Shown here: piece by piece, positions 30,521 through 36,557 of the stretch
Position numbering within the stretch: position 1 is the first letter of the stretch
Layout of the letters: every line of letters begins with the position of its first letter
NCBI RefSeq assembly: GCF_001653235.2
Contig: NC_035790.1
Location: forward strand, 7,626,001 to 7,690,000
Origin: Pochonia chlamydosporia 170
Lineage: Eukaryota; Ascomycota; Sordariomycetes; Hypocreales; Clavicipitaceae
Direction of reading: 5' to 3'
Length of the DNA stretch: 64,000 nt
Translations under genes and position numbers: made by a program
Notes under the pieces: generated by a model
The model's database searches: none
Told to the model about the DNA's origin: nothing
The model's input: the letters and a program-made list of their open reading frames with translations, nothing else

Positions 30521-33500
30521 ATGGCCGAGTCGGCGTTAGCTGCGGCCAGTGCCGTTCCTGCCGCGACAGGTATGTCTTTTGCCTTGCTCCGACAGATGGA
30601 CATCGGTCCCGCCACCAGGACAACTGACTGTCGCAAATGGCGCGCGGGGCCCTGGATGCGACGACGTCATTGTGAATGGAATTGTATCCGGGTACAGTGT
30701 TACTAATGAAGTTTTCTGCAGATATAAAACAAGAAAACGACCCGACTGGCTTGGAGGGCCTCGACTTTGCACTGCCGCCAGAGCTCGCCTCGAAACGACC
30801 ATTCGAAGATGTCAGCACCACTACCGCGGCACCAGAGGCCAAACGAGCAAAGACGGAGACTGAAACGGAAGAAGCTTCACTTGAGGATGGGTTGGCACTA
30901 TTGGTACAGAATGCGCTGTCAAATGTTGGCGATCTAGTCGATCAATTTACGAGTGGCAACCATTCGTTACCAGAACCACCCGCATCTGATCCTATGGAAC
31001 TGGACACGGCTATACCGCTGCCTGAGCCGCCTATTGTTCTAGCGACATTTGCATCAGATCCCCAAAAGTACATTCGCGACGCCAATGTCCATGCGCTAGG
31101 CAATCTCGTAAGTCGTTGCACTACCAAGCGACCAAAAACATCCTTGACTGACCGGCGCATTGCCTAGGCCTTGTCGCTCTTGCTTATTCTCGTACAACCG
31201 CCGTTCGAAGATACCATCAAGCTAGTTCGAGGCTCAGCATCACAACACCAACAATCATATCGCAAGCTAAAAGGCTCGTTCGAGCACGTCCGCGAACTGT
31301 ACTCAACAGGACCAGTCTTATCCGCCGATCAACTTGAATTACGAGATTTTGATTCCAGAACCTTTATCGAACTAGCAAACCTTGCGCAGTTGGGCTCATG
31401 GTTGGTTGATGGAACGCCCAAAGCACTCTCTGAAGCCGACGAAAATTTTCTGGCAATGTTCCAGTGCCAGCTATCCGACCTGCCTGCTGGAATGACGGAA
31501 CTGTATTTGGGCATCAAGACTCAAAGAGCGATTGAATTTCTCGTTGAGAAGGAGCCGGAAAAGCCATCGGAGGAGGTTATTGGAGAGGTTTTGACACAAG
31601 GTCTTGAAGATGCGTTGAAAGAACAACACGGTGGCGGGGAGTTGACGACTGCGGACCAAAGCTTTGTGTCTTCGGTGCAAACAAGGAAAGAGACCTTGCA
31701 AGGGGAGGTAAAGGAACAGTCGGAGCCAGGTATGTTTTCAACGGGATGGGGTTACGTTGATGGATGATGGTGGCTAACTGGCTATTGAAGCTGCACTTCG
31801 AGATAAACATCCCGCGGAAGACCTTTTGAGAAGCTACTTGGAATACGCCGCCGACCGACTGAAATCATTGACAGATTTGGGTAGCAGATTAGGAGTTACG
31901 ATAGAGCTCAGCAGTGGCGAACCGCAACCAGAAGTCATCGAGGACGCGTCTGGCGAGGCCGATTTGGATCTGGACGATTTATCTTCCTTCTTCGAGAAGA
32001 CGGCTTCTGGCCTTGTCCAGAATGCCTTGGCGGGATTGTCAGAGGAGCCTCCCGAGGCGATCCCAGCAGCGGGCGGAGAGGCAGCAGCGCAAGCTTCAAA
32101 CGCTGAGAATAAGACAGAAACCGCTCCGGCACATACCAACGGCAAGATTGATCTGATGACGGACTACAAGGAGCTGGAGGCTCTTGTTGCGGAGAGCACA
32201 TCAAACTATGTAAAGACGACGCTTCACGGACTCTCACCCGTTCCCTACCAACCCACCGTCCCTACCAGTACCAGTAAGTTTGTCGCTCAATATCGCGTCC
32301 GCATCAACCTTCTAATGCAGTTTCACAGCCGAGAGCATGGCCGCTCAATTACCCTACCTTACGCAACTGCAACACCATCAAGCGCAACATCCATACTACA
32401 CCTATACACAACCACCCCCAGAGCCGCAACAACCGCCAGCTCCTGGTGAAAACCTGCCGCCCAACCAGACGTTCCCTAGTGCGATACTGTACGACAAGGC
32501 GCGGCAAGCTGCCCTCTCGAAGTCCTCTGCTCACACTAGAAGGGAGGGACTTCACTCAACTCGTCGACCTTGGACTCAGGAAGAAGAGAAGGCGCTCATG
32601 GCTGGCCTCGACATGGTCAAGGGACCGCATTGGAGCCAGATCTTGACGCTGTTTGGTCAGAATGGCACAATATCAGATATACTCAAGGACAGAACGCAGG
32701 TGCAGCTCAAAGATAAAGCCAGGAATCTCAAGCTCTTCTTCTTGAAGACTAATTCTGAGATGCCGTATTACCTCCAAGCTGTGACGGGCGAGCTCAAGAC
32801 CCGAGCACCAACGCAAGCTGCGAGGAAGGAGGCCGAGGAGAGAGCCAGGCTGAACTCGGAGGAAGACCAGGCCAAACTCCAAGGGATCATGGCTCTGGCA
32901 GGCGGTCTGCAACATCCTCCTCATGGTCGGACTTCAGCCAGCCCTGCCAGTGCTGTTGGATCGGGAGTCGTGACGCCGGCGCAGGCAGCTCAAGCTCACG
33001 CGGCTTCGGCCCCTGCGCAGCATCATGTCGGGCATCAAGGTCATGGAGCAGGACAAGCAGGCCATGCAACGACGATGCCTCGGCCGCTGGTGACACCGGC
33101 ATCTCAAATTCGCCCAGGTGTCCAGACTAACTCGCAGCAATTGTTGCACTCTGTTGCTCAAGCTCAAGCTCAGGCACATGCTCGTCCTCAAGCGCAGCTG
33201 CCACCGCAGGTTCCTCGACCGCAAGGCCAGCCACAGCATCAGCAGCAACTTCAACATCAACATCAACAGCAGCAGCAGAGACAGCCTCATCCTCAGCCGA
33301 CGCCGCAACACACACAACCGCAGCCACAGGCGCAACAAGCCCAGCCAACGCAGCAACATCAAGCTCAGCAGCCAACACGTACACCTCCTACACCACAGGC
33401 GGCACCAAACGCACAAGCGCAAACAAACACAGCTGCAGCCCAGCAGCAGCAACATCATCCTCCAGCAGCAACAACATCTACCAACGCAAGCACGCCGGCT

Positions 33501-33776
33501 ACGGCTGCAGCTACGGCGCCGCCTCAACCCACGGCCTCAGCTACACCGGTGCAGCCACCGCAAGCAGCTCAACCCGTCAAGCAAACGCCGCCTGTCCCGA
33601 CGCCTTCACCAGCACCTCCAACTCCGCAGACGCCTTCTCTTCCTCAGGCGTCTCCGCCCCAGGCGGCACCAAAGCCAGACGGACCGACAAACCAGGAGCA
33701 AGACGACAATGCCGCAGAGGCAGCTCTCCTCGAGGGCCTGCAAGCCGTTGTAGCACAAAGTCTTGCCTCGTCATGA
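30521..33776 (+). CDS. TBF1/TRF-type telobox Myb DNA-binding protein
   Basis: Five exons: 30521-30569, 30722-31107, 31168-31729, 31791-32273, 32329-33776, all with consistent phase; the product is about 975 aa. Residues about 120-330 resemble the TRF homology (dimerisation) domain: ASDPQKYIRDANVHALGNL and DSRTFIELANLAQLGSWL. A single C-terminal-type Myb repeat lies at about 573-632, starting RPWTQEEEKALMAGLDMV and containing the telobox VQLKDKARN at 618-626. That ordering is typical of yeast Tbf1 and its filamentous relatives, which bind TTAGGG-like repeats at telomeres, subtelomeres and some promoters. After the Myb repeat comes an unusually long, Gln/Pro/Ala/His-rich tail of about 300 aa (33000-33700), partly CAG/CAA repeats. 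The acidic middle (31900-32150) may be an activation or linker region. Nuclear protein. Confidence 0.9.
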
Positions 33777-34426: not shown

Positions 34427-35747
34427 ATGGCGGGCCATCGTGCGCGGCATATCTGCACGAGTAGACACTCCCACTCCCATGTGTCTCCATGCCCTGGGAA
34501 TAGCGGCACATGCGGCCAACGACGCTGGGAAGGTCAAATTCTGGGATACGATCGACAGGTTCAATCGTTGCACTGTGAACAGCATACGTGTCGGTTCGTC
34601 ACGGAAGGTTCGTTATGTCACCGCCAGAAACGGCCGGGGGATAAATGTTGCCCGCACCGTATGCCTCAAGAATACTTACATGGTTGCTTCGGTACACTAA
34701 CTCGAGGCAGATCTTCGGTGTGAGGCGTGGATTGGCGAGGAGCGATGCAGGAATGAGGTTCGAGATGGTGATGGTATCAGATTTCGATTCTGTCAGGAAC
34801 TTCGTACGTTTTCTTCCCGTCACAAGCCCTTATTCTAGGATCGAGATACTGAGTGTAAAATTACTGACCGTATAGACTCCTGTATTGAGCGGCAATGCCG
34901 GAATGAACGAATACGTCTACATGATCGAGACCTTAGGTACTGTGACTCCCATCGCTGCCATACGGATGGATGTCCGAACCGGCATGGCACATCACACACC
35001 TGCGAGACCATCACTCGTACCGCCGTCACTACTGAACAGACAGAGTCTCACTCTACCCGAGTGTGCTCCGCTCATCCGTGCCGTCGTCCCTGTCACGGTC
35101 CTGCAGCGTATTGCGCCACTCATACTTGTGAAGTCGTGATCTGCTACGAGAGAAGAACGCGAGGACACTTCTGTGCCACCCATGTCTGCAGCGAGAGCGG
35201 CTGTGAGAGTGTTCGAGGAGCAGGTATCTTCTGCGAGACGCATACCTGTCGTCGGGGAGGATGTACCGATGGCCATGGCGGCTTTCTATTCTGTCAGAGA
35301 CATAGGTGTGTTTCACGGGGCTGTAGTGCCGAAGCTATGTTCGATGGTTTATGTTCAGGGTGTACGGGAGTGCGAGTTCAACCAACATTTCGAGAAGGTG
35401 AGCTTCCTAAATGCATGTTATTCGGAAGGATACTAAGATTCGCAGACCTTTGCAGGAACTCTGCCCCGAGTCTTGACCCCCCTGGACAGGGAACACATTT
35501 CTGCACCAAAAATCTTTGCCAGCTTCGATCGTGTGGTAATGGGCGTGAAGTGTCGTTTGATTGCTATGGGATGCATGGGTGCGGTTATGGTGTTTGTCAT
35601 AGGGTGCGTAAGATGGAGGCCTCGGGTCTGTTGGACGGTGTTGTGATGGAAGGGGGGACGATTTATGGGTTTCGTGATTTGCATGTTTGTGGGCATGGGG
35701 TGAGGTGTGAGAGTCGTGTTATTGGGGGGGATGTTTGTGGGAGATAG
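34427..35747 (+). CDS. Cys/His tandem-repeat protein, putative zinc-binding, unassigned family
   Basis: Four exons assembled by phase and repeat continuity: 34427-34658, 34711-34803, 34876-35397, 35446-35747, about 382 aa. Introns have CTAAC, CTGAC and CTAAG branch-like sites. I do not recognise the family. The protein is built from roughly ten units of a repeat, best seen at 35060-35380, with a 20-residue period: C-x2-H-x-C-x4-C-x8-[FYL]-. Examples are FCATHVCSESGC, FCETHTCRRGGC, FCQRHRCVSRGC and YCDSHRC. Each unit offers one His and three Cys, enough for a zinc site. There is no signal peptide, membrane helix or catalytic motif. The third intron is 48 nt and has no in-frame stop, so retention adds 16 residues. 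The extreme C-terminus loses the repeat and becomes Gly-rich. The 5' start is uncertain; an upstream exon is possible. Confidence 0.7.
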
Positions 35748-35804
35748 TTGATGTTGGTGTTGGGTGATGGGATGTGGTGAGGTTTTGGTGGTGGTGGTTG
35801 TGAT

Positions 35805-36557
35805 GTGGAAAATGAGGTGTTTGTACTCCACCACCTCCTGGATATTTTCTTGCAGCTCGTCCACCCCGATCTGGACCGAGGCCCCTTTATACTGAACCAT
35901 TTGGACTTGCGCAGCCCCAACATCATTGTGGACAAGAACTTGAATATTCAGGGTATCATTGACTGGGAATTTTCGAGTACCATTCCCCGGCAATTGTTCA
36001 CGCCGCCATCCTGGATTACCGCGCATGATTCGATCAAGACACCAAAGGAAATGCATGTCGAATTCCGCCAAGTTTTGGACGAGAAAAGCAGCACAGATAG
36101 CCGATATGACCGGCTTCGAAGAGAGTGGTATGATCCACCAAACCGCCCAGATACATCAGGCATTGGTCATCCAAACTTGGCATTCTGCATTGCCCATCTC
36201 ATACGACGGCCCGAGGATGCTGTTTACACATTCCACGATTATTTTGCTCCCAAGCTCTACGAACGGCCTATTATGGATGTAACTACTAAATTCTTGAAAG
36301 CGAACGAAGCTTGTGCCTCGGAAGTGCGGCGTCGGGTGGAGCAAAATGAGCTCTATACTCAATACCTGAAGGATACTGGGCTATACGTGCGAGACTGGAG
36401 GTTGGATCTGATTGAAAAGTCAAAGGCTCTCAGGGCGGAAATAGAGGCGGCAGAATTGAAGGAAAAGATGGAACTTGAGGCCGCACAGCAAGGCGAGCGC
36501 ATCGGCAACTTGAAGATTGATGAGACGGAAACCCTGAATGGAGACCAATCGGTTTGA
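35805..36557 (+). pseudogene. 5'-truncated aminoglycoside-phosphotransferase-like (APH family) remnant
   Basis: A 250-codon open frame with the C-lobe of a fungal APH/choline-kinase-like protein: the catalytic-loop motif HLDLRSPN (Brenner pattern HxDxxxxN) followed by GIIDWEFSS, whose Asp normally binds metal. Everything that should precede it is absent: no N-lobe, no nucleotide-binding Lys, and the frame opens with GTG without a nearby in-frame ATG. It starts only 58 bp after the Cys/His-repeat gene's stop, within a G/T-rich patch. The C-terminal part (SKALRAEIEAAELKEKMELE) is a charged coiled coil. It is best read as a broken copy left by a rearrangement. An unseen upstream exon is unlikely but not excluded. 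Confidence 0.7.

Follow-up and report, generated by a model that had tools for sequence, protein, structure and literature searches.

The 64,000-nucleotide window analysed here (Pochonia chlamydosporia 170, NCBI RefSeq assembly GCF_001653235.2, contig NC_035790.1, positions 7,626,001 to 7,690,000 of the forward strand) carries, on the + strand between positions 34427 and 35747, a candidate four-exon gene for a protein built of tandem Cys/His repeats; coordinates are those of the window unless another sequence is named. Joining exons 34427-34658, 34711-34803, 34876-35397 and 35446-35747 gives 1149 nt that begin with ATG, stay open throughout and encode 382 amino acids followed by a stop codon. 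The three introns, 34659-34710 (52 nt; GTATGC..CACTAAC..CAG), 34804-34875 (72 nt; GTACGT..TTACTGAC..TAG) and 35398-35445 (48 nt; GTGAGC..ATACTAAG..CAG), are all of the GT..AG type, and CACTAAC, TTACTGAC and ATACTAAG lie close to the respective 3′ ends, where they can be read as branch sites. When introns 1 and 2 were enumerated as GT-AG pairs of 40-120 nt, 273 of 2025 two-intron combinations stayed open into exon 3; the proposed model contains nine C-x2,3-H-x1,2-C blocks, the maximum among these 273, which a single other model equals, and a filter for fungal-like donors and acceptors lets through just two models, this one included. The stop-to-stop frame of exons 3 and 4 spans 302 codons, compared with a longest frame of 269 among 2000 dinucleotide shuffles. 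A sequence-only reading of this DNA had proposed the same spliced gene, and the open frame, the GT-AG introns and the enumeration agree with it; the interruption of Cys/His motifs at exon junctions, which it had also described, is seen in CCPH|HLRC (intron 1) and FCQEL|HSC (intron 2). In-frame retention of intron 3 is possible, since its 48 nt are a multiple of three and contain no in-frame stop.

The core of the array lies in exon 3 and can be read as a series of CCCH modules of the form C-x4-C-x9-[FYL]-C-x2-H, each followed by a single linker residue, a register that fits better than the one first proposed. Three strict modules run from C193 to H211 (35127-35183), from C213 to H231 (35187-35243) and from C233 to H251 (35247-35303), with a Phe before the third Cys in each, and a fourth, C253-x4-C-x9-C268-x2-C271 (35307-35363), has a Cys in place of the final His. 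The motif C-x2-H-x-C occurs seven times in the protein, whereas shuffles average 0.39. Four copies, starting at residues 188, 208, 228 and 248 and all encoded by exon 3, keep an exact period of 20 residues. None of 20,000 composition shuffles produced a run of four at this period (their longest run was two), and none equalled the real protein on any of four repeat counts; in six frames of the whole window, runs of two or more at period 20 occur in this array alone. The 20-residue tandem array of the earlier reading is thus confirmed. Looser Cys/His blocks are also in excess over the whole protein (10 against 1.3 expected, 0/20,000 shuffles); the count for residues 1-112 is reached by 91 of 20,000 shuffles and that for exon 3 by none. 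Any two of the four regular units have 21-30 of 60 bases and 5-8 of 20 third codon positions in common, which is near chance, and no DNA tandem repeat of the 20-residue unit was found, so a DNA repeat was rejected as the origin; the array therefore appears to be old, with its Cys/His frame kept.

Outside this core the modules at C22, C55, C81, C111, C177 and C307 have less regular loops or knuckles. Exon 1 encodes C22-x6-C29-x20-C50-x2-H53 and C55-x8-C64-x9-C74-x2-H77, and exon 2 encodes C81-x8-C90-x14-C105-x3-H109, which is finished beyond the junction. The core of exon 3 is preceded by C111-x4-C116-x14-C131-x2-H134 (34881-34952), a unit at C136 that is without its His, and the short module C177-x3-C181-x6-C188-x2-H191 (35079-35123), while exon 4 contributes one clear module, C307-x4-C312-x9-C322-x3-H326 (35517-35576). 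The spacing between the second and third Cys is 9 in the core, 14 in two looser modules and 20 in the first. Overall, the protein contains 44 Cys, 30 His, 47 Arg and 4 Lys, with a net charge of +11; its hydropathy (maximum 19-residue mean of 0.68, no predictor used) gives no sign of a signal-peptide-like N-terminus or a membrane segment.

No Pfam family matched the 382-residue sequence at E<=10 in a library of 24736 models, which upholds the earlier statement that no curated family fits the array, and the single match obtained with five pieces of the protein (PMG, E 3.4) is read as chance. When 5.8 billion protein sequences were searched, none of the 399 candidates for the whole protein reached E<=0.001, and of the 65 candidates for residues 165-272 none reached E<=10. 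This search depends on shared five-residue words, so distant relatives could escape it; the collection does contain fungi, as the 991 matches of the neighbouring Myb/TRF gene attest. No second copy was found among the best-scoring candidates in the 44 Mb genome with a DNA, whole-protein, array or bacterial-array query. Among the weak matches inspected there in six frames (L002, L006-L018, L020-L026, L028-L032), tandem blocks are confined to an NF-X1 gene (L013-L017); an isolated C-x4-C..C-x2-H match without tandem copies lies in a frame common to L029 and L030. No array was seen at L274 in the middle one of three frames, the one inspected. No viral relative was found by sequence at a tblastn E<=1e-3, and PADLOC and NCBIfam gave nothing relevant. 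A fungal array of such motifs was likewise not found in the literature covered, which left out most subscription journals and in which plant CCCH/WRC papers and one archaeal RPA paper surfaced.

Relatives emerged from scans with a DNA pattern that describes two units spaced at period 20, which hit at least 120 viral and at least 115 genome loci (at least 235 together). Among the matches listed, 189 of 235 loci carry both units of the motif in a frame without stops, and the majority of the stop-free frames shown are five-residue Cys repeats. A frame filter (at most seven Cys, at least 11 residue types) was passed by nine frames, which were then judged by eye; six (L057, L075, L100, L149, L183 and L226) were rejected as low-complexity, and three of the 235 loci among the matches listed proved to be real arrays, namely L197, a Clostridia sequence from dairy cattle colon, and two Oscillospiraceae loci, L166 and L253, the latter from water deer colon. 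In 394 sampled genomes from the order of L197 there were three matches, its own, L271, which is clearly an array (41% identity), and L272, the weakest (E 2.3e-4), which was rejected as an array for want of tandem blocks; with three matches in 394 genomes, the array is rare in this order. No match for the L197 protein was found in phage and plasmid records. All Pfam matches of the bacterial array proteins fall below cut-off. From their sequences, the N-termini of L197 and L271 look lipoprotein-like, that of L253 like a membrane anchor, and L269, a fuller version of L166, appears to have one membrane segment before its array. The L269 gene (L269:1255-2232, - strand) places the array behind this membrane stretch and has a lone CCCH module near its C-terminus; we take the pre-array stretch to resemble an anti-sigma factor anchor, for which Pfam gives no support, and the product could possibly be a ligand-sensing surface protein. 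Five-residue Cys repeats of the SNHRC/CDYRC kind, in stretches of 60-195 residues, were seen on viral and bacterial contigs alike (L038, L044, L054, L064, L085 and others) and may be either genuine genes or misread frames of 15-base repeats; an NCBIfam RiPP model with a Cys at every fifth residue matches L253 weakly (E 1.2).

Like the fungal protein, the Clostridial arrays consist of C-x4-C-x7..13-C-x2-H modules in tandem, joined by one-residue linkers and mostly (15/19 modules) with F, Y or W before the third Cys; a joint alignment has 15 invariant Cys/His columns, and the Clostridial rows are 28-39% identical to the fungal row. In contrast to the fungal array they are acidic or Lys-rich rather than Arg-rich, and lipoprotein-like or membrane-anchor N-termini precede them. 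The likeness extends beyond Cys and His. The bias-corrected phmmer scores of the fungal protein against L197, L166 and L253 are 61.5, 29.8 and 21.1 bits; as the database was three sequences, the bits alone are meaningful. Over the non-Cys/His positions of 19 bacterial and four fungal modules, a single shuffle among 20,000 attained the module-wise score (0/20,000 in a repeat run), and 271 of 20,000 did so once the residue before the third Cys was left out; much of the extra likeness therefore resides in that residue, which is aromatic in 15/19 bacterial and 4/4 fungal modules. A profile of five bacterial rows from four proteins gave the fungal protein 57.9 bits, compared with a maximum of 49.3 and a mean of 21.3 in 1000 shuffles with Cys and His fixed, with mild circularity, as the profile rows had been co-aligned with the fungal row. 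When the L271 array, not aligned to the fungal protein beforehand, was used to query the 44 Mb genome, the array locus ranked first (E 4.1e-7; second-best 0.18). Common descent of the fungal and Clostridial arrays, rather than convergence, is plausible on these comparisons of short modules without intermediates.

The bacterial arrays also bear on the register. The finger could instead be a compact C-x2-H-x-C-x4-C block, the unit from which the array was first recognized, with flexible linkers of 8-20 residues; the residues of such a block form one short, unbroken stretch, and the variable spacer would then fall between the blocks. However, all four bacterial arrays (L197, L253, L269 and L271) finish with C-x2-H, L253 and L269 starting with C-x4-C and L197 and L271 with C-x2-C, and L166 has a lone C-x4-C-x9-C-x2-H module at residues 139-157, outside its array. 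Curated fingers with the order C-x4-C..C-x2-H exist as well. We therefore favour the CCCH register and regard the alternative as distinctly unlikely.

By its sequence, the fungal array has the ligand layout of Zf_WRKY19, EsV-1-7 and WRC, fails the models of all three and has a shorter linker. The models themselves overlap: one plant WRKY19-like fragment matches PF24906 Zf_WRKY19 (E 1.9e-19) and, below cut-off, PF19114 EsV_1_7_cys (4.5e-5) and PF18721 CxC6 (0.007), all on C-x4-C..C-x2-H; CxC6 was rejected as an identity. Zf_WRKY19, judged from this fragment, shares with the fungal array a tandem C-x4-C-x10-F-C-x2-H, the fungal loop being one residue shorter, and differs in its Gly-containing linker of about five residues and its period of about 25. 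Membership was rejected (no match at E<=10; cut-off 27 bits), the best score in the fungus's own genome being 16.7 bits at another locus. The NF-X1 finger (PF01422) opens with C-x2-H-x-C, and the fungal unit C172-H182 is similar, but in NF-X1 a C-x3-C-H comes next, as in the genome's own gene; the array locus is not among the model's matches and its spacing differs, so this family was set aside. The NF-X1-type gene itself lies at G000:C1:1061074-1062183. Phage HNH and endonuclease VII proteins contain a small CCCH finger with the same ligand order, and a PHROG HNH model matches the lone L166 module (E 1.2e-4), but theirs is a single finger joined to a nuclease, and the fungal protein matches no nuclease family. 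The EsV-1-7 motif (PF19114; Ectocarpus IMM, viruses) is C-X4-C-X16-C-X2-H, with a longer loop and linker. It too forms C-x4-C..C-x2-H repeats, and one fungal module is C-x4-C-x14-C-x2-H, but in the EsV-1-7 motif about 16 residues separate the second and third Cys, against nine in the fungal core; the array locus is absent from the matches (cut-off 25 bits) and membership was rejected. EsV-1-7 genes are patchily distributed across eukaryotes and viruses, according to PMC7457493. WRC is described in PMC7380329 as an atypical CX9CX10CX2H C3H finger acting as a DNA-binding domain. The fungal exon 1-2 modules resemble this WRC/HRT finger (plant GRF, PF08879) in their C-x8-C..C-x2,3-H, whereas WRC is present once or twice per GRF and with a nuclear signal, again according to PMC7380329. 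The fungal protein does not match PF08879 at E<=10 and a bacterial match is limited to L269 (E 0.91, below cut-off); zf-C3Hc3H (PF13891) has no fungal match and a match to bacterial L253 below cut-off (E 0.95), and was rejected. The earlier supposition that the spacing is without relatives does not stand, given that a one-residue-linker array also occurs in Clostridia and that Zf_WRKY19 and EsV-1-7 share the ligand layout.

Structure prediction for the 85-residue regular array (35109-35363, +), aligned with the five bacterial rows, gave a best model with pLDDT 89.0 and pTM 0.69, the five models ranging down to pLDDT 42; single-sequence AF2 gave no useful model. In a viral fold search, a Barrevirus protein superposes on the model (TMq 0.63, prob 1.00, E 1.2e-3), phage HNH and endonuclease VII proteins appear with E values from 3e-3 to 0.16, and EsV-1-7 ranks 14th (E 0.038) with a TMq of only 0.22 and prob of 0.14. 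The model supports, as a prediction, a folded string of small modules. Storage or buffering of Zn, Cu or Cd in the manner of a metallothionein would account for the abundance of Cys (44) and His (30) among the 382 residues, and the irregular outer modules would be harmless for such a function. Yet the exact core spacing, the Phe before the third Cys in the three strict modules and the likeness to bacterial modules beyond Cys and His all point to a folded module, and C-x-C clusters of the metallothionein type are absent, so we consider a metal store rather unlikely.

A secreted effector of the ZiF zinc-finger type was considered in view of a weak PDB sequence match between the bacterial L197 protein and AVR-Pii (E 0.081). 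Neither the fungal stretch 34839-35396 nor the fungal-bacterial alignment matches AVR-Pii, and the N-terminus is not signal-peptide-like by hydropathy. The ZiF ligands, given as C-X2-C-X12-H-X-C in PMC9618136, differ from the array in order and spacing; the ZiF fold was rejected and this possibility is highly implausible.

Taken together, we favour, with modest confidence, a real, spliced hypocrealean gene for an intracellular, Arg-rich, multivalent binding scaffold made of CCCH modules. Several observations weigh against this reading. The codon usage score of the 382-residue frame (-0.068; GC3 0.486) is not above those of other frames (-0.050 and -0.043) and lends no support; exons 1-3 alone score -0.022 and exon 4 -0.280. 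Negative in-frame scores are also seen in two of 14 training genes, and the values for two intergenic stretches are -0.065 to -0.142. The Cys/His block count of exon 4 alone is reached by 3093 of 20,000 shuffles, so this exon is not enriched. Finally, nucleic acid is not the sole possible ligand, because the bacterial arrays follow membrane or lipoprotein anchors, which hint that such a module can also work outside an intracellular setting.

The codon scores, lowest in exon 4 (-0.28), and the insignificant block count of that exon would also suit a decaying or unexpressed locus, in which a formerly coding array is drifting and exon 4 is partly noncoding. Two features of the 3′ side are in keeping with this: positions 35500-35875 (+), which take in the last part of exon 4 and the 3′ flanking sequence, show a strong G/T strand skew (GC skew +0.58, AT skew -0.33 to -0.41), and the adjacent gene appears to be truncated. 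That gene, at 35805-36554 (+) directly behind the array gene, retains just the C-terminal portion of an APH/choline-kinase-like protein, with a match to positions 152-201 of 239 in Pfam APH; it looks 5′-truncated because the N-terminal part of its nearest paralog (C3:1206359) matches the window at chance level at most. Against decay stand 382 open codons with three well-formed introns, a frame length beyond that of 2000 shuffles, and modules that were preserved while their DNA diverged. We hold decay to be unlikely.

The next gene upstream, at 31168-33773 (+), encodes a TRF and Myb protein (TBF1/telomere repeat binding factor) with a Gln/Ala/Pro-rich C-terminus. Its closest named relatives, among 120 of 991 matches listed, are from Trichoderma, Fusarium and Ophiocordyceps, and in the TRF domain the nearest of six relatives compared is that of Ophiocordyceps (58.5%), which points to Hypocreales. 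Among the Myb-region entries P0011 and P0065, the Golovinomyces entry is 99% identical to this hypocrealean Myb region, probably through contamination, and the Colletotrichum entry is named 'tenellin synthetase', a name that looks wrong.

In the favoured reading of a CCCH scaffold, each module would fold round one putative zinc held by the two Cys of the first knuckle and the Cys and His of the second. Because the next module begins one residue later, modules would stack closely into a semi-rigid string. The variable Arg-rich loops may make contact with nucleic acid or with an acidic protein partner in the cytosol or nucleus; such ligands fit an Arg-rich protein of net charge +11 in which hydropathy indicates neither signal peptide nor membrane segment. 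Metal binding by the array is well motivated, and nucleic-acid binding may be inferred.

A bolder proposal, which we regard as possible though doubtful, is that an uncatalogued family of tandem CCCH modules (C-x4-C-x9-[FYW]-C-x2-H with a one-residue linker) has members in fungi, Clostridia and giant viruses, perhaps through gene transfer; the fungal form would be a spliced, Arg-rich, intracellular modular binding rod with variable loops and a fixed metal frame. The array appears to represent a tight-linker tandem form of small CCCH fingers that was missed by the curated libraries searched, and it would connect a fungal protein for which no relatives were detected with bacterial proteins of a surface type. 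Since searches by shared words can overlook such proteins, 'orphan' may mean merely 'undetected'. If the modules each bind zinc and the loops select the ligand, the array would provide a compact repeat scaffold with 20 residues per unit.
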